Positions 1-24,287 of a stretch of 24,651 bases of DNA are shown one piece after another; positions within the stretch are counted from its first letter, which is position 1; each line of letters opens with the position of its first letter. The DNA is from a virus. The notes beneath the pieces were generated by a model. That model saw only the letters and a list, made by a program, of their open reading frames with translations, made no database searches and had not been told where the DNA came from. The stretch lies in the IMG/VR virus record IMGVR_UViG_3300037193_001330, positions 1 through 24,651 of that record; one strand, written 5' to 3'. The position numbers and the translations under genes are program-made.

Positions 1-848
1 CAGGCCAACTGCACGGCGGTCCAGAGGTTCAGGCTTTAGAGAAGGAATGGGCCGAGCATTTCGGCTTTAAACATGCGGTTGCGATGAACAGCGCTACAAG
101 CTGTTTGATTGCTGCCTGTGGTGCCGTAGGGGCAGGACAGGGGGACCGGGTTATCGTGCCACCGCTCACCATGAGCGCTAGCGCGACTTGCATGATGCCT
201 TGGGGAGCAAGGCCAATTTTCTATGATATTGAGCCGGATTATTTCTGCCTGGATCCCAACAAAGTCCATCCAGAATATGCCAAGGCCATCATCACGGTTG
301 ACATTTTTGGACAAATCTCAAATTCAGAATTGAGAAAACACGGGCTTCCGATTATTCAGGACGCTTCTCAGCGCCCTTTGCCCGGAGGCTTTGGCGATAT
401 CGTTGTCCATTCCCTGAATTATCACAAGCATATCCATTGCGGTGAGGGCGGGATGGCTTGCACGAACAATGATTTCTATGCTGATAAGCTCAGACTCATT
501 AGGAACCACGCCGAGTGTGGGCAGGGCGTCCTTGGCGCTTTTTGGAAAGGTCTTTACGGGTTCAACTTCCGTCTGACGGAAATAGAAGCCGCTATTGCCC
601 GTGTACAGCTCACCAAGTTACCGGCAGAGATAGAGCGCCGCCAAGCGAGCGCAGAAACGATTGAAAACTTGGCTCCGGTTCGGCCTGGCACGCAGCATGC
701 TTGGTATCTTTTCCCGCATCTGGAAGAGGTCCAGGACAGCTTCAAGTATGCAAAACCACTTTATAACCTGCCTTTATTGAAATCGGATCCGGATCGGTAT
801 CCAGTAACTGAGCAAGTGTGGAAGTCGATTTGGATGACCCGGCCGTGA
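1..848 (+). CDS. DegT/DnrJ/EryC1/StrS-family sugar aminotransferase (PseC/LegC-like), 5' end outside window
   Basis: PLP-dependent aminotransferase expected to convert a UDP-4-keto-6-deoxy-HexNAc into its 4-amino sugar, the step after the dehydratase encoded at 9563. The reading frame is open from base 3 with the typical N-terminal motif GGPEVQALEKEWAEHFG followed by NSATSC (base 84 onward), so the ATG at 84 is internal and the true start is left of the window. Counting from that Met, IIQDASQ (Asp93) matches the Asp that binds the PLP pyridine nitrogen, and NYHKHIHCGEGG gives Lys115 as the Schiff-base lysine. The fold-type I core is intact. After the FNFRLTEIEAAIARVQL segment the C-terminal part is much shorter than in usual members of about 370 residues, with a compressed ending LYNLPLL. 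The stop overlaps the next gene by 4 bp (GTGA). Family is certain; sugar specificity is inferred from the neighbouring pathway genes. Confidence 0.88.
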   Translation, partial: GQLHGGPEVQALEKEWAEHFGFKHAVAMNSATSCLIAACGAVGAGQGDRVIVPPLTMSASATCMMPWGARPIFYDIEPDYFCLDPNKVHPEYAKAIITVDIFGQISNSELRKHGLPIIQDASQRPLPGGFGDIVVHSLNYHKHIHCGEGGMACTNNDFYADKLRLIRNHAECGQGVLGAFWKGLYGFNFRLTEIEAAIARVQLTKLPAEIERRQASAETIENLAPVRPGTQHAWYLFPHLEEVQDSFKYAKPLYNLPLLKSDPDRYPVTEQVWKSIWMTRP

Positions 849-1399
849 GCCGTTTCTTGAAAGGGGATCGGATCCGACTGGCGCATTTCGGCCCGCATCT
901 GGTCAGCTTGTTTTATCAAAAGTGGCTGAACGATCCAGAAATTAACCGGTATACGTCGCGAGGTCGATTCCCAGTAACTTGGGACGATTGCAAGCAGTAT
1001 GCCCAGACCTGTCAGTCCGAAAGCCGTATCGTGATGGCTATTCTGCTGAATGAGGGGGTAGTTACTGCCCCGTCCGGTGATCTGACTGAGCACATTGGGA
1101 ACATTACCCTGCAACAAATCAATCTGTTTGATTGCAGTGCAGAACTGGCTATCCTGCTAGGCGAAAGGCAGGGTGAAGGATACGGACTGGAGGCAGCCCG
1201 TCTACTTTGCACCCATGGCTTCAATACATTGGGCTTAAATCGCATCTACTGCGGCACGCATGAAGAGAATATCGGTATGCAAAAGCTGGCCATAAAACTT
1301 GGAATGAAAGAAGAAGGCCGCAGGCGGCAAGCCATCTGGAAGAACGGGAAGTTCTCCGATGTCATCGAATACGGAATTTTAAAAGAGGAATTCAAATAA
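845..1399 (+). CDS. GNAT N-acetyltransferase, RimJ/RimL type
   Basis: Acetyl-CoA-dependent acetyltransferase of the RimJ/RimL-like GNAT fold, about 184 residues. The chosen GTG start at 845 forms a GTGA overlap with the aminotransferase stop and gives the usual N-terminus (MSRFLKGDRIRL); an upstream GTG at 818 would add nine residues inside the preceding gene. The acetyl-CoA-binding region is seen as ERQGEGYGLEAARLL, followed by the GLNRIYCGTHEENIGMQKL and LGMKEEGRRRQ segments characteristic of RimL-like proteins. Directly behind a sugar aminotransferase, the likely substrate is the new amino group of a nucleotide-activated amino sugar (PseH/LegH role). A second, different GNAT at 18699 is a better PseH match because of its WRN motif, so this one may acylate another position. 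The next gene, a structural phage gene, starts on the very next base after the stop. Confidence 0.85.
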   Translation: MSRFLKGDRIRLAHFGPHLVSLFYQKWLNDPEINRYTSRGRFPVTWDDCKQYAQTCQSESRIVMAILLNEGVVTAPSGDLTEHIGNITLQQINLFDCSAELAILLGERQGEGYGLEAARLLCTHGFNTLGLNRIYCGTHEENIGMQKLAIKLGMKEEGRRRQAIWKNGKFSDVIEYGILKEEFK

Positions 1400-3967: not shown

Positions 3968-5113
3968 ATGATAGAGGGTTTGCAGTACTGCACCCGGTGT
4001 ATTATGCCGGAGACGCAGGAAGGCGTTTCTTTCGATGATATGGGCATCTGTACGGCATGCCAATCATCCGAACAGAAGATGCACATCAACTGGCAGCAGC
4101 GCCGGGAGCAATTGTCGGAAATCCTAGCAGAGGCCAAGGCCAGCGCTGGGGATAACTACGATTGCATCATTCCCATTAGCGGTGGGAAAGACAGCTTTTT
4201 CCAGCTTCATGTGCTGGTGAAAGAGTTTGGACTTAAACCGCTGGCAGTGACCTTCTCTCACAACTGGTTTTCAAAAACCGGCTACCACAACCTAATGCTG
4301 GCACTGGAAACCTTTAATGTTGACCATATCCAGTTCACGCCAAACCGTAAATTGGTGAATCAGCTTGCCAAAAAATCTATATATAAAATTGGGGATGCTT
4401 GCTGGCATTGTCACTCAGGCGTCGGGGCGTTCCCGTTGCAAGTGGCTGTCAGGTTCGGCATCCCCTTATTAGTTTGGGGAGAATCGATTTCTGAAGCCTC
4501 CGGGCGCGCTTCTTACGAGGCCCCCGTGAGGCATTTTGATCGAGAATACTTCGAAAAGGTTTCGGCTAAAGTCCCTCCGGCGGCTATGCTGGGCGATGGA
4601 ATTACCGAGCAGGATCTATCGCCTTTCAGGCTCCCTACGGCGGAAGCTTGCGAAGCCATCGGGCTAAAAGGCATCCATCTGGGCGATTACATCTTCTGGG
4701 ACGATGAAAAACAAATGGAATTCGTCCGGGATCATTACGGATGGAAAGAAACCCAGCTTGAAGGCACTTACAAGTGCTATAAATCTGCCGAGTGCATTAT
4801 GCCGGGCGTCCATGACTTTGCCTGCTACCTCAAGCGCGGGTACGGCCGGGCGACATACCAGGCAAGCCTTGATGTCAGAAATGGGCTACTGACCCGCTCA
4901 GAAGGTCATCAGCTTGCAGCGCAATACGATCCTGAACGTCCGTATGCCCTGGATTATTTCCTAGATATCACCGGGCTGTCAGAAGCTGAATTCTATGAAG
5001 CCGTAGACGCTCATCGGCATGAAAAGCTGAAAGAACGCCAGCAGATCAAGCCAAAATCCAGAGAACACGCAGAGACGCTGACCCCTTATTCTCAGCAGGT
5101 GCTCAATGATTGA
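3968..5113 (+). CDS. N-acetyl sugar amidotransferase (PseA/WbpG/LegA-type)
   Basis: ATP-dependent PP-loop enzyme of 381 residues. In characterised relatives it replaces an acetamido group of a nonulosonate or HexNAc with an acetamidino group, using ammonia. Seen directly: an N-terminal four-cysteine cluster, CTRC (Cys8, Cys11) and CTAC (Cys28, Cys31); the adenylation PP-loop ISGGKDS (residues 70-76); and CWHC (Cys145, Cys148). Length fits the family (about 370-380). Relatives normally depend on a HisH-like glutaminase and often HisF; neither is in this window. Instead an amidase overlaps the end of this gene by 8 bp. The ATG at 3968 follows the 16-bp leader repeat. This is the clearest indicator that the sugar made here is an acetamidino derivative. 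Confidence 0.9.
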   Translation: MIEGLQYCTRCIMPETQEGVSFDDMGICTACQSSEQKMHINWQQRREQLSEILAEAKASAGDNYDCIIPISGGKDSFFQLHVLVKEFGLKPLAVTFSHNWFSKTGYHNLMLALETFNVDHIQFTPNRKLVNQLAKKSIYKIGDACWHCHSGVGAFPLQVAVRFGIPLLVWGESISEASGRASYEAPVRHFDREYFEKVSAKVPPAAMLGDGITEQDLSPFRLPTAEACEAIGLKGIHLGDYIFWDDEKQMEFVRDHYGWKETQLEGTYKCYKSAECIMPGVHDFACYLKRGYGRATYQASLDVRNGLLTRSEGHQLAAQYDPERPYALDYFLDITGLSEAEFYEAVDAHRHEKLKERQQIKPKSREHAETLTPYSQQVLND

Positions 5114-6251
5114 CCGCTGGAATGCCTGGCGAGCCTATGAGCAGCCGCCGGAAGGATACTTGGCTGTAGGGATAAAAGACGTTATCAATACAGCAGATTT
5201 TTCAACAGAGATGGGCAGTCCGGCCTGGGCAGGCTTCACCCCTGGCAACGATGCCCGTGTGGTGACCAAGTTAAAAGAAGCCGGTTGCGTCATTGCTGGT
5301 AAAACGGTGAGCGCTGAATTTGCCGTCCATCATCCTGGCCCAACACTCAACCCGCACGACCCTACCCGAACCCCTGGTACATCTTCCAGCGGGTCTGCTG
5401 TTGCGGTCGCCTGTGGCATGGTACCAGCAGCCATAGGCACGCAAACAGCGGGATCAATCATCCGCCCTGCAAGCTATTGCGGTGTGTATGCAATGAAGCC
5501 CAGTTTTGGGCTTATCCCACGCACTGGGGTGCTAAAAACTGCGGATACATTGGATACGATTGGCTTCTTTACAGAAACTCCGGAGCTGCTGCGGACAATG
5601 CTGGACATCTGCCGGGTGGACGGACCAGATTACCCGCAAATCACCAAGCTGAAAACACTTGCTACCGTTAAACGGGTTGGGGTCCTTCGACCTTCTTGTC
5701 AGAAGGAATGGCCGGTTTATGCCTTGCGAATGTTTGAAACTTGGGTGGACAGGCTGGGTGAGTTCTTTGATCTTGATGAATTCGGGCTGGATGATGAGCC
5801 GATTCATCAGATTCACCGAACGATTTATCACAAATCCCTTTCCTATTATTTCCAACGGGAAATAGAAGCCGGACAGGTATCAGAGGCCTTCAAAGCCCAG
5901 GCAGAAGAAGGTAAGCAGATATCGCTGGAAGATTACCGGGCCGCGCTTCAAGCCCAGGAGCTTATCAGTGAGTCGTTCGACACCACTCTTCAGCAATTTG
6001 ACGTCCTGGTGACACTGAGCAGCGGAGGCGATGCGCCGAAGGATGAGAGCCAAGCGCCCAGGGATACAAATTTAGTGTGGACACTGGCCGGAGCACCGGT
6101 CATCAATATTCCGGCGTTTGTATCTCCGGACGGGTTGCCGTTCGGGGTGTCTATCATTGCCCGTAAATATCACGATTACAAGCTTTTTGGCTTTTTGGAC
6201 ACGTTAATAAAAGCAGGACTGGCCCCGACCGGGCTGAATCCTAGGTTATAA
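5106..6251 (+). CDS. Amidase signature family hydrolase
   Basis: Ser-cisSer-Lys amidase of 381 residues, shorter than the usual 450-500. Catalytic elements are all visible: Lys24 in VGIKDVINT, the cis-Ser region PGTSSSGSA (Ser93/Ser94), and the nucleophile Ser117 in GTQTAGSIIRPAS. The family hydrolyses amides with release of ammonia; GatA belongs to it. The start overlaps the amidotransferase stop by 8 bp, so the two are translationally coupled. The inference is that it either supplies ammonia to the amidotransferase in place of HisH or removes an N-acyl group during sugar synthesis. Substrate is unknown. The 5' side lacks part of the N-terminal helical region of longer relatives, but the catalytic core appears intact. 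Confidence 0.9.
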   Translation: MIDRWNAWRAYEQPPEGYLAVGIKDVINTADFSTEMGSPAWAGFTPGNDARVVTKLKEAGCVIAGKTVSAEFAVHHPGPTLNPHDPTRTPGTSSSGSAVAVACGMVPAAIGTQTAGSIIRPASYCGVYAMKPSFGLIPRTGVLKTADTLDTIGFFTETPELLRTMLDICRVDGPDYPQITKLKTLATVKRVGVLRPSCQKEWPVYALRMFETWVDRLGEFFDLDEFGLDDEPIHQIHRTIYHKSLSYYFQREIEAGQVSEAFKAQAEEGKQISLEDYRAALQAQELISESFDTTLQQFDVLVTLSSGGDAPKDESQAPRDTNLVWTLAGAPVINIPAFVSPDGLPFGVSIIARKYHDYKLFGFLDTLIKAGLAPTGLNPRL

Positions 6252-7219: not shown

Positions 7220-10979
<3,760 letters not shown>

Positions 10980-15876: not shown

Positions 15877-17000
15877 GCCCTTTACATGACTACAACCTCG
15901 CAAATCAAACGCCGGCCAGCTACAGAACCGATCACAACAACCTCAATCTAGCCATAGCCGGTTGTAACGCCTCATCCAGTGGAATCACGACCACTTACGC
16001 CCACATGCTTTATGCGGACGTGTCGTCAAGCGGTTGGATGCGACAACGGAACGCGGCAGACAGCACGTTTAACTATTTATACAAAACTGATGCGGCTGGA
16101 GGAGTCTGCACCTATGCGGGCAGTCCGAGCACAAATCATATTGGCAGATTTGTCGGGCAATTTGTGTTTGACACCAGCAACACTGTCTACTACTACAACA
16201 CACTGGCCGGAACCTCCTCTCAGGCGACATGGTCCATGGTTGCGTCCAGTTCGGCATATAATGCCAGTGGTTTTCCAAAAGGATATATCCATGGCCTAAT
16301 CCCAACTTATGCTAGTGCGGCCAGCTTCACCATATCAGCCGGGGGCTGTCGAGATTCTGGAAATGTGGCAGATATCTCTATTTCTACCGCTTATACGGTA
16401 AATATTACCGTGTCTGGTGCTGGCGGGTTGTCTACCAGCGAAACCGAATCCACTAGTGGTAGTTGGTATTACTGTTTCGCTATGCGTAAGAGCGGAGACG
16501 GGACGGTCAATTTTATTCTGACCGCTTCCTCCAGCGGTGCAGTCTTGCCGAGTGGATATGACCAGACCAGAATGCTGCCCTTCGCCATCCGGAACACCAC
16601 CCAGGCGAATTTTCTGCGGTGGAGCGTAATAGAAGGCTGGCCGCAGCGGCCATATATTAAATATGACGAAACACATCAGGATCCTGGGAGCGCTGTTGGC
16701 ACTTGCAATCTACTTGATGGCGGATCGGCCAGCACATATACGGCCGTAACAATGACTTCTTTTGTTCCTCCGATATCAAATATTGCCAGAATCTTGGTGG
16801 GGAATACGGCCGCCACTGCTCAGATAGAGGTGTCAATTCGGCCCACAGGGCAGACTTACCAAATGGTGCACCAAACACAGCCAAGCCAATGGCATCCGAC
16901 GACAGTTACAAATTTATCAACCAGCAAGCAATTTGATTACGCCGTTGGAAGCGGCTCCGTTGATATCGATATCGACGGTTATTATGTTACCGAGCTGTGA
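15873..17000 (+). CDS. Tail fibre-like protein 1
   Basis: Protein of 375 residues, rich in Ser, Thr, Gly and Tyr. Residues 5-20, HDYNLANQTPASYRTD, recur almost exactly at the start of the second fibre (19229), so this is a shared attachment domain with divergent distal parts. After it comes GWMRQRNAADSTFNYLYKTD, a particle-anchoring pattern common in tail fibres that display a domain after a W-x-x-R-N segment. The rest is beta-strand rich and lacks recognisable catalytic motifs. ATGA overlap with the previous gene, AGGTGA as ribosome-binding sequence. Likely role: receptor binding. The sugar genes follow two bases after the stop. Confidence 0.72.
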   Translation: MSPLHDYNLANQTPASYRTDHNNLNLAIAGCNASSSGITTTYAHMLYADVSSSGWMRQRNAADSTFNYLYKTDAAGGVCTYAGSPSTNHIGRFVGQFVFDTSNTVYYYNTLAGTSSQATWSMVASSSAYNASGFPKGYIHGLIPTYASAASFTISAGGCRDSGNVADISISTAYTVNITVSGAGGLSTSETESTSGSWYYCFAMRKSGDGTVNFILTASSSGAVLPSGYDQTRMLPFAIRNTTQANFLRWSVIEGWPQRPYIKYDETHQDPGSAVGTCNLLDGGSASTYTAVTMTSFVPPISNIARILVGNTAATAQIEVSIRPTGQTYQMVHQTQPSQWHPTTVTNLSTSKQFDYAVGSGSVDIDIDGYYVTEL

Positions 17001-17002
17001 GG

Positions 17003-17791
17003 ATGAAAATAGTTGTTCTGGGCGCCAGCGGCATGCTTGGTTGCGCCTTGATGGCCGAAGGGCAAGGACGCGGGCATGAGATGACCGGGGAGCGGGTAGA
17101 GCTAACCGATGGAGCAGCCTTAAAGGCCCACCTGGAAAAACACCAACCCGATCTTGTCATCAATTCGGCAGCATTAACCGATCTGAGGAGATGCGAGGCG
17201 GACGCCCGGCTTGCTTACGCTATCAACGCAAAGCCAGTTGAAATAATGGCGCAATACAGGTTGATTCAGATTTCCAGTGATCAATGTCAAGGGGAATTGT
17301 TCAATGAGTATGCTCGATCTAAGTGGTATGGCGAATGTTATGCCATGGATGGACTGGTTATCCGGACTAATATTGTTGGCCTTAACAATATGGGATGGGC
17401 CATAGAGGCCATTGAAAATGACTCTCCAGTTACCTTGTTTGACGACTATCACACATCCAGCATTGATATCTGGAGCTTTTCGGAAATCCTGTTTGACCTG
17501 CTGGAACAGCATCCGGGCGAGACAGGGATTCTAAACATTGCCAGCAAGGACACGGTGAGCAAAAAGGAATTCGTCGAGGCTCTAGCTGGCAGGATGGGAA
17601 AGAAATTGACCAATGCCAAGGCTGGCAGTGTGAAAGACTTGTTGCCCAAGAGAAACCTGAATAACAGGCTGGATGTCAGCAGGATTGAGGGCTTACTAAA
17701 CCGGAAGATGCCGGATTTAAACAAAGTGGTTAATTCATTGGCGGAAAGGCGGAACCTATGTACCAACCAATCACGATTGGCGATCGTCTGA
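17003..17791 (+). CDS. RmlD-like SDR oxidoreductase (dTDP-4-dehydrorhamnose reductase family)
   Basis: Extended SDR enzyme of 262 residues. N-terminal MKIVVLGASGMLG contains the NAD(P)-binding Gly7-x2-Gly10-x2-Gly13; DLVINSAALTDLRRCE, AINAKPVEIMA and the catalytic Tyr103-x3-Lys107 (YARSK) follow, with SSDQ upstream at residues 91-94. The C-terminal half has TSSIDIWSFSEILFDLL and a GILNIASKDTVSKKEF segment as in RmlD. Shorter than typical RmlD (about 290). ATG 17003 gives the standard N-terminus; GTG at 16997 would create a GTGA overlap with the fibre gene and adds two residues. The 3' end overlaps the NeuB-like gene by 34 bp. Probably a sugar-nucleotide or nonulosonate reductase/epimerase; exact substrate unknown. 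Confidence 0.85.
   Translation: MKIVVLGASGMLGCALMAEGQGRGHEMTGERVELTDGAALKAHLEKHQPDLVINSAALTDLRRCEADARLAYAINAKPVEIMAQYRLIQISSDQCQGELFNEYARSKWYGECYAMDGLVIRTNIVGLNNMGWAIEAIENDSPVTLFDDYHTSSIDIWSFSEILFDLLEQHPGETGILNIASKDTVSKKEFVEALAGRMGKKLTNAKAGSVKDLLPKRNLNNRLDVSRIEGLLNRKMPDLNKVVNSLAERRNLCTNQSRLAIV
17740..17755 (+). repeat. 16-bp leader repeat, copy 2 (before NeuB-like gene)
   Basis: Second copy of GGCGGAAAGGCGGAAC, again ending two bases before an ATG (17758). This copy lies inside the last codons of the RmlD-like gene, where it encodes part of the C-terminal LAERRN, so it must satisfy both coding and translation-initiation roles. Confidence 0.85.
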
Positions 17792-18702
17792 TCACAGATG
17801 ACAGCCAGACTTTTTTCATTGCAGATATTGCCAGCAATCATGACGCGGATTTAAACCGGGCCATTGACCTGATCCACCTAGCGGCCGAGGCCGGGGCAGA
17901 CGCGGTGAAATTTCAGCACTTTTTAGCGGACGAAATTGTCAGCGATGAAGGGTTTCAGAAAGTCGGTAAGCAGTCTCATCAAACCGACTGGCCTTTGTCG
18001 GTTTATGAAACTTACAAAAAATACGAACTCAACCGGGAATGGACCGCCACACTGGCAGAAGAAGCTAGAGAAGCCGGGGTTGTGTTTATGTCTACCCCGT
18101 ATGACTTGGAAGCGGTGGAGCATTTAGATCCTTATGTCCCGGCCTGGAAGGTGGGCTCCGGGGATTTTGGTTGGGCTCCTTTGTTGAGGGCTCTCCTTGA
18201 GACAGGCAAACCGGTGATAATGGCGACAGGGGCAACGTCAGAAAGTGAGATCATAGGGTTAACCTCCAGTTTAGCCTTTTCGGCACCTAACAGCCCCATT
18301 GCCCTCATGCAGTGCAACACTAGCTACACTGGTAGCCTGGAAAACTTCAAGTACATTAACCTGCGTGTCATCAACTGGCTTCGAAATACATTCCCAGGAA
18401 TGACTGTAGGCCTTTCCGACCACACCCCAGGTCATGCCACCGTGCTGGGCGCGGTAACACTTGGCGCCAGGCTGATTGAAAAGCATTTCACTGATAACAA
18501 CAGCCGGATCGGCCCGGACCATGCTTTTTCTATGAATCCCAAAAGCTGGCGCGAAATGGTTGACCGATCTAGAGAGCTTGAAGCGGCTTTAGGCGACGGC
18601 ATTAAACGGGTAGAAGAGAACGAGCGGGAAACCCGTATCCTGCAACGTCGTGGCAGGTGGATAGTCAAGGGCGTCGAAAAAGATTTGAGGCCTGCATTAT
18701 GA
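17758..18702 (+). CDS. NeuB/PseI-type nonulosonic acid synthase lacking the SAF domain
   Basis: PEP-dependent synthase of 314 residues that condenses a 6-carbon N-acyl amino sugar with phosphoenolpyruvate to form a 9-carbon nonulosonate (sialic, legionaminic or pseudaminic type). Seen: FFIADIASNHDADLNRA, DAVKFQHF (Lys51, Gln53; PEP region), STPYDLEAVEHLDPYVPAWK, VGSGD, MATGAT, QCNTSYTG, GLSDHTPGH (His222) and IEKHFTDN (His243). The two His are 21 residues apart, as are the metal ligands of meningococcal NeuB. The barrel is complete but the protein stops at RRGRWIVKGVEKDLRPAL, where the C-terminal antifreeze-like SAF domain (about 50-60 residues) would begin. Start is marked by the 16-bp leader; the stop overlaps the next gene as ATGA. 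Confidence 0.92.
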   Translation: MYQPITIGDRLITDDSQTFFIADIASNHDADLNRAIDLIHLAAEAGADAVKFQHFLADEIVSDEGFQKVGKQSHQTDWPLSVYETYKKYELNREWTATLAEEAREAGVVFMSTPYDLEAVEHLDPYVPAWKVGSGDFGWAPLLRALLETGKPVIMATGATSESEIIGLTSSLAFSAPNSPIALMQCNTSYTGSLENFKYINLRVINWLRNTFPGMTVGLSDHTPGHATVLGAVTLGARLIEKHFTDNNSRIGPDHAFSMNPKSWREMVDRSRELEAALGDGIKRVEENERETRILQRRGRWIVKGVEKDLRPAL

Positions 18703-19226
18703 TCCGTGGCGATTCTGTAGGGTTGCGGGCTGTTGATTATCAAGACCTGACCAAGCTGCTGGAATGGCGTAACAGGCCAGAGTATCGATGCTACTTCCGT
18801 GAAAATCGGGAACTGAATTGGGAACAGCAAAAAGCGTGGTTTTTTGAAAAGGTCTTAAAAGACAAAAATACCCGCATGTTTACCATGGTCCGCTTGTCAG
18901 ACGGACTATTAATTGGTGCTTGTGGGCTTTGCTATATCGACTGGGTGAACGGCAGCGCTGACTTCTCTATCTATATTGGCCATGATGACTTGTACATTGA
19001 TGAAACGTTAGCTCCAGACGCGGCAAAGACCATGATCCGTTATGGTTTTGATGAAATGCGGTTGCATCGGCTTTGGGCAGAAGTGTACGGCTTCGATAAG
19101 CAAAAACAGGCCATGTTCAAGAGCCTGGGCTTTAACGTGGATGGCGTTCACCCGGAAACCAACTGGCATGATGGCCAATGGCATGATTCGGTCTATTTTT
19201 CCATGTTGAATAACGACCAGAGGTAA
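18699..19226 (+). CDS. GNAT N-acetyltransferase, PseH-like
   Basis: RimJ/RimL-like acetyltransferase of 175 residues, starting at the ATG that overlaps the synthase stop (ATGA); the in-frame codon at 18657 is inside the synthase gene and is rejected. N-terminal RGDSVGLRAVDYQDLTKLLE is followed by WRNRPEYRCYF; the WRN motif is characteristic of PseH and related sugar N-acetyltransferases. Further on, GLLIGACGLCYIDW and ADFSIYIG form the central strands, and RLWAEVYGFDKQKQAMFKSL the acetyl-CoA side. PseH acetylates the C4 amino group of UDP-4-amino-4,6-dideoxy-AltNAc. Location in one run with the RmlD-like and NeuB-like genes supports this. A Shine-Dalgarno for the following fibre gene overlaps its last codons. 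Confidence 0.85.
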   Translation: MIRGDSVGLRAVDYQDLTKLLEWRNRPEYRCYFRENRELNWEQQKAWFFEKVLKDKNTRMFTMVRLSDGLLIGACGLCYIDWVNGSADFSIYIGHDDLYIDETLAPDAAKTMIRYGFDEMRLHRLWAEVYGFDKQKQAMFKSLGFNVDGVHPETNWHDGQWHDSVYFSMLNNDQR

Positions 19227-20520: not shown

Positions 20521-21240
20521 ATGCTTTTATTATTGGCATCAGGGAGACCGTCTCCTGCACTTGCATCGTCTATATTGTCCCTTGCTTCATCCTACTGGGA
20601 TTTCAATGAAACCACTTCTTCTCACGCGGACAGTAAGGGTGTTCTGTCATTAACAAGCGGCGGGACTACGATCTCAAGGGATGGAACTAAGGTTGGCTTT
20701 ACAACCCCTGGAAGTACAGGCGGCGCGATTATTGCAGATGCTAATACTTACTTTAACTCCACGAAATTCACTTCTGCCGTATGGTTCACTCCTTCTGATT
20801 TATCGGCAACGGCTGCAATTATTCAAGGGATGCTGCCTGGCAATGGCGTGGTGGGCTCTTGGTCAATAAATACTTCGACTTCGGGGTCAGGGTTTGAACT
20901 TTCTGTTTGGAATGGCGGAAGTAGAGGCGTTCTTAATGCAAGTGGATCAACATCTACCGGCACCAAATATCTCATCATCGTTAAGTATGAGCTGATAAAT
21001 GCGGGCTCAAACACAAACAATTGTCAAATTCGATGGACAAGTGATGGTTCAACGTGGACCACAGCTTCTGCAACGGATGCTGTCCCTATGACCACAAACT
21101 CAGCCTGGGAGCTTAGAACGAATTGGGCATCGGGCACGGCCGGAAGTACGCCTGGCAGTCATTGGCGCTGGCTGTTCTACAGCAACAAGTACACAACGAC
21201 TGATGAAGATCAGGACATTTGGAATGCCGGCAGCGAGTAA
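20521..21240 (+). CDS. LamG/concanavalin A-like domain protein
   Basis: Protein of 239 residues with a single LamG-like jelly roll from about residue 25: SSYWDFNETTSSHADSKGV, LTSGGTTISRDGTKVGF, FTSAVWFTPSDLSATAAIIQ, GFELSVWNGGSRG, LIIVKYELINAG, CQIRWTSDGSTW and the closing HWRWLFYSNKYTTTDEDQDI. Such domains in phages decorate capsids or fibres and often bind glycans. The N-terminus (MLLLLASGRPSPALASSI) is mildly hydrophobic but not a clear signal peptide. An AGGAAATAAG sequence precedes the ATG. The last 128 bp are overlapped in antisense by the minus-strand hydroxylase. Confidence 0.75.
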   Translation: MLLLLASGRPSPALASSILSLASSYWDFNETTSSHADSKGVLSLTSGGTTISRDGTKVGFTTPGSTGGAIIADANTYFNSTKFTSAVWFTPSDLSATAAIIQGMLPGNGVVGSWSINTSTSGSGFELSVWNGGSRGVLNASGSTSTGTKYLIIVKYELINAGSNTNNCQIRWTSDGSTWTTASATDAVPMTTNSAWELRTNWASGTAGSTPGSHWRWLFYSNKYTTTDEDQDIWNAGSE

Positions 21241-22165
21241 AAGGCCTCAAAGCCCAAGCCTCAGCAAAGGGGCGGAAAATTAGGTCTGTAAATGTTCTGT
21301 AATTCTTGGTTTCCGCACCTAACCCAAATTTTATATGCCCTTGTCTGCGGCAATAAGTGCCCAACATGCGGTCCCAAACTGTAAAGAACATCCCGAAGTT
21401 CTTATCGAAATGTTCTGGGTTATCGCTGTGGTGCACCTGATGGTCGGCGGGGCTGACGAAAATCAAACCAAGTGGCCCGTAATCGATCCAGTGGTGCGTG
21501 TGCTGAAGAGTATAGAGAATCCCATAAAGTACGAAGTACAGAAAATCAAAGATGGGTGGAGTGGTTACTGTAGCGGTATATAGATACTGATACGCCCCAT
21601 CCACGCTGCCAGCAAAGAGGCCCAGGACAAAATAAAGAATATAAAGAGCAGGGTGATGCCGCGAACCTGTCATAGGGGTTAGCACTTCCGCAGAATGATG
21701 GACTTTGTGGAAGACCCAGAACAGCGGGACTTTATGCATCGCATAATGAAGGACGAACATCCCAAGGTCAAAGAGAATGAGCTTTAAAAAAAAGACCAAG
21801 ACCGCTGCACCGATTCCGCCTTCACCTAATACGCCGGCAGGCAGAAAGAGTGATAACAAGTTAGCCATTCCTTTCTCAAAAAAAGGCTTGGAGTGATAAA
21901 GGGAGCCTATAATCGGCAGAGCCAGGATAAAAGGCGTGAGCTTAAGAAAAACAAAATCGTTCAGTGTTGACACCCTGAAATAGACATCTTTGGGAAACCA
22001 TGACGCTTTCGCACTGGTTTTCCTGCCCGTCAATCGCTGGAACAGGAAATAAGGCCCCGCCACAAGAAAACAACCCAACACATACAGTAGAAGGGTTTCG
22101 ACTTCAGGTAGCGCGGAAAACAGAATCGAAATATCAGGCATATGGCATCCATAGCTATACCGCAT
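21113..22165 (-). CDS. Fatty acid hydroxylase / sterol desaturase superfamily membrane protein
   Basis: Integral membrane di-iron oxygenase of up to 350 residues. The histidine clusters are complete: HYAMH (His140, His144), HKVHH (His153, 156, 157), HTHH (His222-225) and HQVHH (His242, 245, 246). Hydrophobic segments near residues 22-40, 76-90, 119-140, 172-188 and 204-220 give the usual membrane arrangement. Family members hydroxylate or desaturate lipids (fatty acids, sterols, carotenoids, lipid A chains). Normal homology appears to end around FTDLIFRPFAEAWAL (about residue 306); the last 42 residues read antisense through the LamG gene and are Cys-rich and unrelated. Start could be Met1 (22165) or, more likely, Met9 (22141): a weak promoter (TTGGCA at plus 22190-22195) would place the first base after Met1. 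Orientation opposite to late genes marks it as a moron. Confidence 0.88.
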   Translation of the reverse strand: MRYSYGCHMPDISILFSALPEVETLLLYVLGCFLVAGPYFLFQRLTGRKTSAKASWFPKDVYFRVSTLNDFVFLKLTPFILALPIIGSLYHSKPFFEKGMANLLSLFLPAGVLGEGGIGAAVLVFFLKLILFDLGMFVLHYAMHKVPLFWVFHKVHHSAEVLTPMTGSRHHPALYILYFVLGLFAGSVDGAYQYLYTATVTTPPIFDFLYFVLYGILYTLQHTHHWIDYGPLGLIFVSPADHQVHHSDNPEHFDKNFGMFFTVWDRMLGTYCRRQGHIKFGLGAETKNYRTFTDLIFRPFAEAWALRPFTRCRHSKCPDLHQSLCTCCCRTASANDCQAYFRPCPMPNSF

Positions 22166-23444: not shown

Positions 23445-23482
23445 AGCCCCGGCTTTTTATGGCCGGGGCTTTTTGTTTTTTT
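23445..23482 (+). terminator. Rho-independent terminator ending the late operon
   Basis: AGCCCCGGC (23445-23453) pairs perfectly with GCCGGGGCT (23462-23470) around an 8-base loop; the + strand continues with a T-rich run (TTTTTGTTTTTTT). It sits 33 bp after the last + strand stop, facing the convergent Bro-N gene, whose stop lies in the T-run. Confidence 0.93.
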
Positions 23483-24254
23483 AGCTTCCAGGAAGCATTT
23501 TCGGGAGGTAAGGAAGTGCCAAGGGGTCACGCTCTTGGAAGTATCCATGTGCCCTTTCGTGCATCCACACGTCATCGACATACCGGATAAACACAGGCCA
23601 GAGGTCCAGCGGGTATTGCTTTGCATCAACTGTGTTTCCGTCCGGCAGCACATGGGAATAGTATTTGGAGTCCTTTGAGGCCTCGGGCATATGCTTTTTC
23701 AGCCAGTCTGAGAACATGCGCCCCACTGAAACATCAGGGCGCAATTCTTTGCCATCAGGCCCGATGTCTGCCATACGATGACCAAGTTGCTCCAGCCGTC
23801 CATAAAGGCGGATTGTCAGTTCGCTTATAACGCTGAAATACCCTTTGTCGACACGGTCCCAATTGGCATTGTATCGACGGATGAAGTTCGGCGTGGCGCT
23901 CATGCCCGGCAGTAGGTAGCCGCCTTTTTTGCGGATTGAAGGCAAGACCTCATGAGTAACCCATCGCTTAAAGGCTTTTGCCTCCGGCTTCCGGCTGCGG
24001 ATAATCAGAGAGTATAATCCCGGCTCATTGATAACCAAAAAGCTCTGAGCGCCTATTCCCGCCTGACCATCACTATTAATGATGGTCGTCTTCTCGTCAT
24101 CATCCAACGCTGACAGCGCTTGGCTCACGTTGTTCAATTCCAGGATTTTGCAGACATCAACGGCATAAAACCAAATCTGGCCGTCAATTTCTGCTGTCCT
24201 AACTTTATTGTCTCCGTGGTACTCGAAAACCTGGAGACTTAACTGCATAGCCAT
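23481..24254 (-). CDS. Bro-N domain protein (phage antirepressor type)
   Basis: 257-residue protein with an N-terminal BRO domain: FEYHGDNKVRTAEIDGQIWF, YAVDVCKILELNNVSQALSA, LDDDEKTT, FLVINEPGLYSLIIRSRKPE and AKAFKRWVTHEVLPSIRKKGGY. Proteins with this domain are DNA-binding regulators or antirepressors in phages. The C-terminal part (from about residue 130) is a different helical region beginning PNFIRRYNANWDRVDKGYFS, with IRLYGRLEQLGHRM, resembling P63C-type modules of antirepressors. The start ATG at 24254 has AAAGGAG eight bases upstream; codons at 24272 would add six residues that overlap it. It faces the late operon and is transcribed towards it. Confidence 0.9.
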   Translation of the reverse strand: MAMQLSLQVFEYHGDNKVRTAEIDGQIWFYAVDVCKILELNNVSQALSALDDDEKTTIINSDGQAGIGAQSFLVINEPGLYSLIIRSRKPEAKAFKRWVTHEVLPSIRKKGGYLLPGMSATPNFIRRYNANWDRVDKGYFSVISELTIRLYGRLEQLGHRMADIGPDGKELRPDVSVGRMFSDWLKKHMPEASKDSKYYSHVLPDGNTVDAKQYPLDLWPVFIRYVDDVWMHERAHGYFQERDPLALPYLPKMLPGS

Positions 24255-24287
24255 ATTCTGCACTCCTTTCACAAGTGCAAAACTCTA

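Follow-up and report, generated by a model that had tools for sequence, protein, structure and literature searches.

The N-acetyl sugar amidotransferase PseA of an uncultivated siphophage and the amidase encoded right next to it are probably subunits of one amidotransferase, in which the amidase replaces HisH and HisF as the source of ammonia. Judging from sequence comparisons, we put the probability of this reading at roughly three in four. The stretch of DNA analysed here (the window) is a 24.7-kb fragment of the phage genome and corresponds to positions 1-24,651 (24,651 nt) of the IMG/VR virus record IMGVR_UViG_3300037193_001330. Its relevant features are listed in Table 1.

In the proposed mechanism, the amidase subunit would hydrolyse an amide donor by means of Lys24, Ser93 and Ser117 and release ammonia. 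The PP-loop subunit, together with ATP, would activate the N-acetyl carbonyl of a nonulosonic-acid sugar and add the amidase-derived ammonia to it, yielding an acetamidino group. The amidase would stand in for two subunits, the glutaminase HisH and a HisF-like protein (WbuY/WbuZ or HisH2/HisF2). Ammonia would be handed over between the subunits, presumably through a channel, and the donor may be glutamine, asparagine or a malonamate-like amide.

Table 1. Location of the amidotransferase-amidase pair and of other sugar genes in the window
Feature	Position	Strand	Basis
PseC-like aminotransferase, sugar pathway shared with PseA	84..848	+	PF01041; TIGR03588 110.9 bits, below cut-off
GNAT N-acetyltransferase, sugar pathway shared with PseA	818..1399	+	PF13302
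N-acetyl sugar amidotransferase (PP-loop; WbuX/PseA/NASAT), amidase-linked clade	3968..5113	+	TIGR03573 339 bits
PP-loop SGGKDS, amidotransferase residues 71-76	4178..4195	+	sequence; kept across the clade
PseA/amidase gene overlap, 8 bp	5106..5113	+	ORF coordinates
Amidase-signature enzyme, proposed ammonia-supplying partner	5106..6251	+	PF01425 197 bits, cut-off 27
Catalytic Lys24 codon	5175..5177	+	aligns with MAE2 K62; 55/55 family members
Catalytic cis-Ser93 codon	5382..5384	+	aligns with MAE2 S131; 55/55 family members
Nucleophile Ser117 codon	5454..5456	+	aligns with MAE2 S155; 55/55 family members
PseB, UDP-GlcNAc 4,6-dehydratase (inverting)	9563..10519	+	TIGR03589 513.7 bits, cut-off 407.75
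RmlD-like reductase, sugar pathway	16997..17791	+	PF04321
NeuB-family nonulosonic acid synthase	17758..18702	+	PF03102 237 bits
Second GNAT N-acetyltransferase (PseH-like)	18657..19226	+	PF13302; TIGR03585 53.5 bits, below cut-off

The PP-loop sugar amidotransferase

The known partners of PseA, WbuX and WbpG are a HisH-like glutaminase and HisF-like proteins (WbuY/WbuZ, HisH2/HisF2). The systems WbuX-WbuY-WbuZ, WbpG-HisH2-HisF2 and PseA-HisH-HisF have in common with the window a PP-loop subunit of one family (TIGR03573) and a similar sugar pathway. However, they possess both a HisH glutaminase and a HisF-like subunit, whereas the window system lacks both and has an amidase-signature enzyme instead. 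Its PseA also falls in a clade separate from that of the HisH/HisF-partnered enzymes.

The window PseA is 381 aa long and clearly passes the cut-off of 203.2 bits for the WbuX 'N-acetyl sugar amidotransferase' model TIGR03573. Its best solved relative is LpNASAT from Legionella (PDB 8WEX, E 2.8e-39), with which it shares the PP-loop family, the zinc tetracysteine and the SGGKDS motif. The tetracysteine (C8/C11/C28/C31) and the PP-loop motif, which were defined in PMC10607449, are invariant at the counted positions in all 45 sequences compared. For the PseA family, it was proposed there that ATP activates the N-acetyl carbonyl of the sugar and that ammonia is then added. Based on its family membership, the window enzyme is predicted to form an acetamidino group on a sugar in the same way. 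PMC10607449 covers the LpNASAT subunit alone, and its main text names no ammonia-supplying partner.

The amidase

The amidase is likewise 381 aa long and belongs to the Amidase signature superfamily according to both PF01425 and its Lys-cisSer-Ser triad. The original prediction had noted that the stop of the amidotransferase gene overlaps the amidase gene by 8 bp and that the Lys-Ser-Ser elements (Lys24, Ser93/94, Ser117) are intact. Both observations held up: the overlap likely reflects translational coupling, and the alignment with malonamidase E2 (MAE2) places the triad residues as given in Table 1, with Ser94 invariant in 55/55 family members as well. Arg120, located 3' of Ser117 and equivalent to R158 of MAE2, is kept in 54 of the 55.

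The further assumption that the amidase is of the GatA type was not confirmed. The nearest solved structure is malonamidase E2 from Bradyrhizobium japonicum (1obi/1o9o; E 8e-56 across residues 9-359), and one bacterial homologue gave a match to it at the fold level, too. The window amidase resembles malonamidase E2 over the full length, including the equivalents of the triad and of Arg158, but GatA only across the N-terminal half, so that a glutaminase pocket is not evident. With 175.6 bits, it remains far below the cut-off of the GatA equivalog TIGR00132 (481.1). GatA belongs to the same superfamily and supplies ammonia to a partner subunit in GatCAB. It has the amidase-signature fold and the Lys-cisSer-Ser triad in common with the window amidase, but its partner is GatB, whereas the neighbour here is a PP-loop sugar enzyme. 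Malonamidase E2, in turn, is a stand-alone malonamate hydrolase, and we know of no PseA partner for it; the window amidase differs from it in being paired with PseA.

Compared with its cellular homologues, the phage amidase is shorter by about 55 N-terminal residues, which make up the first helices of the amidase fold. A wrong start call was considered as the cause and rejected, because the open frame continues upstream for only 8 more codons (389 codons) and the relatives in L010 and L011 are likewise short.

Distribution of the PseA-amidase pair

An amidase-alignment scan of 84,980 species genomes resulted in 67 bacterial and archaeal loci from at least 15 phyla. Among them are Pseudomonadota, Campylobacterota, Bacteroidota, Ignavibacteria, Planctomycetota, several Patescibacteria, Synergistota, Chloroflexota, Melainabacteria, Gemmatimonadota, Armatimonadota, Omnitrophota, Acidobacteriota, Bacillota, Thermodesulfobacteriota, Methanomicrobiales, Woesearchaeota and others. 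In 64 of these 67 closest cellular loci, the amidase has a neighbouring PseA homologue with 54-71% identity to the window PseA; since the scan used patterns taken from paired amidases themselves, sampling of the closest subfamily is built into this count. PseA lies directly upstream of the amidase, at a distance of at most 250 nt, in 62 of the 64 paired loci, and many of the genes overlap. The gene order is reversed in L069. In L076, PseA is 1.9 kb away from the amidase and two genes lie between them, one of which encodes a formyltransferase; in G090 (L170 2820-4381), a methyltransferase-like gene and a PIG-L deacetylase gene separate the pair. The three unpaired loci are L070, which is at a contig edge, and two homologues from the Roseomonas group with 38% identity. 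A search that started from PseA added five Campylobacterota genomes, with the amidase adjacent in all five. The carriers of the pair include the isolate Massilia sp. Root418 (L073). The adjacency of PseA and the amidase is far beyond chance, and the phage pair is one variant of a cellular module that occurs widely and is not peculiar to phages.

We could also follow the pair among viruses. The amidase is present in all 11 viral records searched except one (L009/G057). A 52.5-kb phage relative (G051/L002), which carries an integrase (Pfam) as well as terminase, portal and capsid-like genes (ORF reading), has the same set of sugar genes, arranged in identical order amid its structural genes, the PseA-amidase pair among them. 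The pair occurs within another phage type in L004 and L005, and the placement of the amidase ahead of PseA in L006/L007 makes for two gene orders among the viral loci. Phage L009, a 30.7-kb fragment, encodes a PseA of the amidase clade and neither an amidase nor HisH. Annotated phages contained no PseA match and no similar genome; their amidase matches were all distant and apparently stemmed mostly from contaminating bacterial contigs.

Some phages of the PseA clade also encode an MptE-like protein and a CMP-sugar synthetase-like protein (L007 2043-3908, L009 3604-5478). The MptE-like protein of L007 resembles the flagellin modification protein PseD (Maf type), below the cut-off, and the same record encodes a short NeuB-like protein. 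Phages of the L007/L009 type hold a nearly complete sugar-transfer set.

Absence of HisH and HisF from amidase-type loci

The original prediction had seen no HisH-like gene at hand, and TIGR01855 indeed gave no match to the window or to any of 10 related viral records, which include one of 52.5 kb. It had also suggested a survey of amidase genes beside amidotransferases without HisH. We searched 50 pair-bearing genomes for HisH and PseA and compared their positions with a limit of 3.5 kb. None of these genomes has HisH within 3.5 kb of the amidase-linked PseA, while about 22 of the 26 other PseA copies that they contain have HisH within that distance. Two apparent cases of HisH together with the amidase (G017:C111 and G048:C46), which arose from matching coordinates alone, were rejected, as the amidase pair is located on different contigs (C214 and C162). 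HisF is excluded from amidase-type loci like HisH. Given that both proteins are missing and that the amidase is there in nearly every case, the most straightforward interpretation is that the ammonia comes from the amidase.

Both types can share one sugar cluster, as seen in Adlerbacteria/Kaiserbacteria (L042 8430-15590, L043 2-6629), where the PseA-amidase pair occurs along with a HisH-HisF-PseA set. There, HisH adjoins its own PseA and is 3.65 kb away from the amidase-linked one. Such double sets perhaps amidate two positions or two sugars.

A HisH gene elsewhere in the genome had been named beforehand as evidence against an ammonia-supplying amidase. This is not decisive: most hosts carry the gene for histidine synthesis, and the point that counts is its absence from the amidase-type loci. 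In an evenly drawn sample of 398 Pseudomonadota genomes with 51 PseA copies, 40 copies had HisH within 6 kb, 2 had the amidase (one of these is the centre genome of the sample), 9 had neither and none had both. The amidase type is a minority of PseA enzymes, cleanly separated from the HisH type. Nine PseA genes outside the amidase clade likewise have no HisH nearby; PseA thus need not be encoded close to its ammonia source.

Fusions, co-evolution and phylogeny

PseA and the amidase form a single protein of 875 aa in the isolate Solidesulfovibrio alcoholivorans DSM 5433 (L035:8534-11158) and of 870 aa in a Desulfarculus MAG (L064); a search of the phylum of L035 for additional fusions yielded no new one. 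In the HisH/HisF class, we found a HisF/WbuZ-WbuX (PseA) fusion of 805 aa (L156 202-2619), so both classes show PseA fused to its respective partner. An AlphaFold2 model of the L035 fusion had a mean pLDDT of 92.5 and a pTM of 0.91, based on an alignment of 94 rows, six of which cover both parts (four of them through read-through of an in-frame stop). Such a pTM would be hard to reach without a defined mutual placement of the domains, and we regard the model as supporting, not decisive. A GNAT-PseA read-through control gave a pTM of 0.40, but cannot calibrate the value for the fusion, as its PseA part was itself poor and its alignment shallow.

Pairwise distances of PseA and the amidase are correlated with r 0.86-0.88. 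The corresponding values for PseA with PseC (0.62-0.63), GNAT (0.38-0.42), NeuB (0.42) and PseB (0.61) were obtained with best-match picks, some of which may be non-orthologous. A quick ML tree built from 87 PseA rows places every one of the 46 amidase-linked sequences, together with the unpaired phage L009, in one group with a support of 100 and a stem length of 0.70, in which the window PseA clusters with its phage relatives. The partner label changes twice on this tree, compared with 29 times in shuffles. The single group and the two label changes suggest one partner switch that was followed by a wide spread.

Sugar genes in the phage genome

The window contains siphophage connector, tail and tip genes. 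The genes for the nonulosonic-acid sugar are dispersed among these structural genes, singly or in small groups. The PseC-like gene is probably 5'-truncated by the record edge; its homologues in relatives encode 301-305 aa. In many bacterial loci, a GNAT gene lies a short distance upstream of PseA, and the RmlD-like gene adjoins NeuB in related bacterial ones. Being located between siphophage head-tail, tail and tip genes, the sugar genes are probably expressed late, along with the virion proteins. The sugar product likely ends up on the virion or on the host surface. We recognised no clear PseG/NeuC, CMP-sugar synthetase or glycosyltransferase in the window or among the listed ORFs of G051.

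The minus strand of the window harbors two further genes of note. Positions 21113-22165 encode a phage-borne protein of the fatty-acid-hydroxylase family with distant similarity to the ornithine lipid hydroxylase OlsE. An antirepressor-like protein (Bro-N) is encoded at 23481-24272, and its C-terminal half matches the PHROG family of the abortive-infection protein BstA.

Possible roles of the amidase

The idea of a new ammonia-delivery arrangement is favoured by the conserved pairing, the exclusion of HisH and HisF, the fusions, the co-evolution and the clade specificity. The original proposal is partly supported, with the transfer of ammonia as its conjectural part; the arrangement is not peculiar to this phage, and the amidase resembles malonamidase more than GatA. 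The unpaired L009, the intervening genes in L076 and G090, the nine PseA genes of other clades that likewise lack a nearby HisH, the GatA match limited to the N-terminal half and the shortened N-terminus of the phage amidase count against an ammonia-delivering amidase. A more specific version, a channelled complex of a malonamidase-like amidase and the PP-loop enzyme that uses a carboxylate-bearing amide donor and neither glutamine nor asparagine, seems rather unlikely, but is permitted by the conservation of Arg120. It is also conceivable, with still lower probability, that the amidase merely raises the local ammonia concentration for PseA and that no stable complex or channel exists. The separate genes in most loci, the reversed order in L006/L007 and L069 and the intervening genes in L076 and G090 would agree with this weaker form of the explanation; the natural fusions, the high pTM of the fused two-domain model and the very tight co-evolution of the two proteins speak against it.

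Alternatively, the amidase could process the sugar itself, hydrolysing an N-acyl or amide group of the nonulosonic acid or of one of its precursors, either ahead of the PseA step or following it, with ammonia for PseA coming from the cell or from a host HisH. Malonamidase E2 is a small-molecule amidase, the amidase gene is located within sugar clusters, and the PIG-L deacetylase (G090) and the formyltransferase (L076) between the paired genes indicate acyl remodelling in some of them. However, such a role predicts neither the loss of HisH and HisF wherever the amidase occurs, nor the PseA-amidase fusions, nor a co-evolution with PseA that is far weaker with PseC, GNAT and NeuB. We consider it unlikely; in particular, a de-acylation of the sugar ahead of PseA, the second option originally put forward, is disfavoured, as it gives no account of where the ammonia comes from and no reason to expect the loss of HisH and HisF. 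An amidase that is a mere passenger or an independent catabolic enzyme would fit its distant homologues of about 38% identity, which lie in apparently catabolic surroundings (molybdenum-hydroxylase and tripartite-transporter genes around L079, by ORF reading) or next to a TRAP-transporter-like gene (L159). A predominance of such surroundings had been foreseen as a counter-argument, but only distant homologues are placed in this way. With 64 of 67 close homologues adjoining PseA across at least 15 phyla, and with the fusions in addition, this explanation is effectively refuted by the survey.

Significance

Both parts of the pair come from known families, and an amidase-driven supply of ammonia is already known from GatCAB. 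In the openly licensed literature, we found no paper that ties an amidase to PseA/WbuX and no description of the phage group of the window, which is weak evidence given that scope. The PseA-amidase pair is probably a second, so far unnamed route for the sugar-amidation step. If the amidase does supply the ammonia, an amidase-signature enzyme would have been recruited independently for this task, comparable to GatCAB. The natural fusions make the claim testable with a single expression construct.

Acetamidino nonulosonic acids are found as decorations on flagella, lipopolysaccharide and capsules, and their ammonia source has hitherto been tied to HisH/HisF. An exclusive second partner in at least 15 phyla and in phages would give a function to genes that are annotated merely as 'amidase', and the pair may serve as a simple genomic marker for acetamidino sugar chemistry where HisH is missing.
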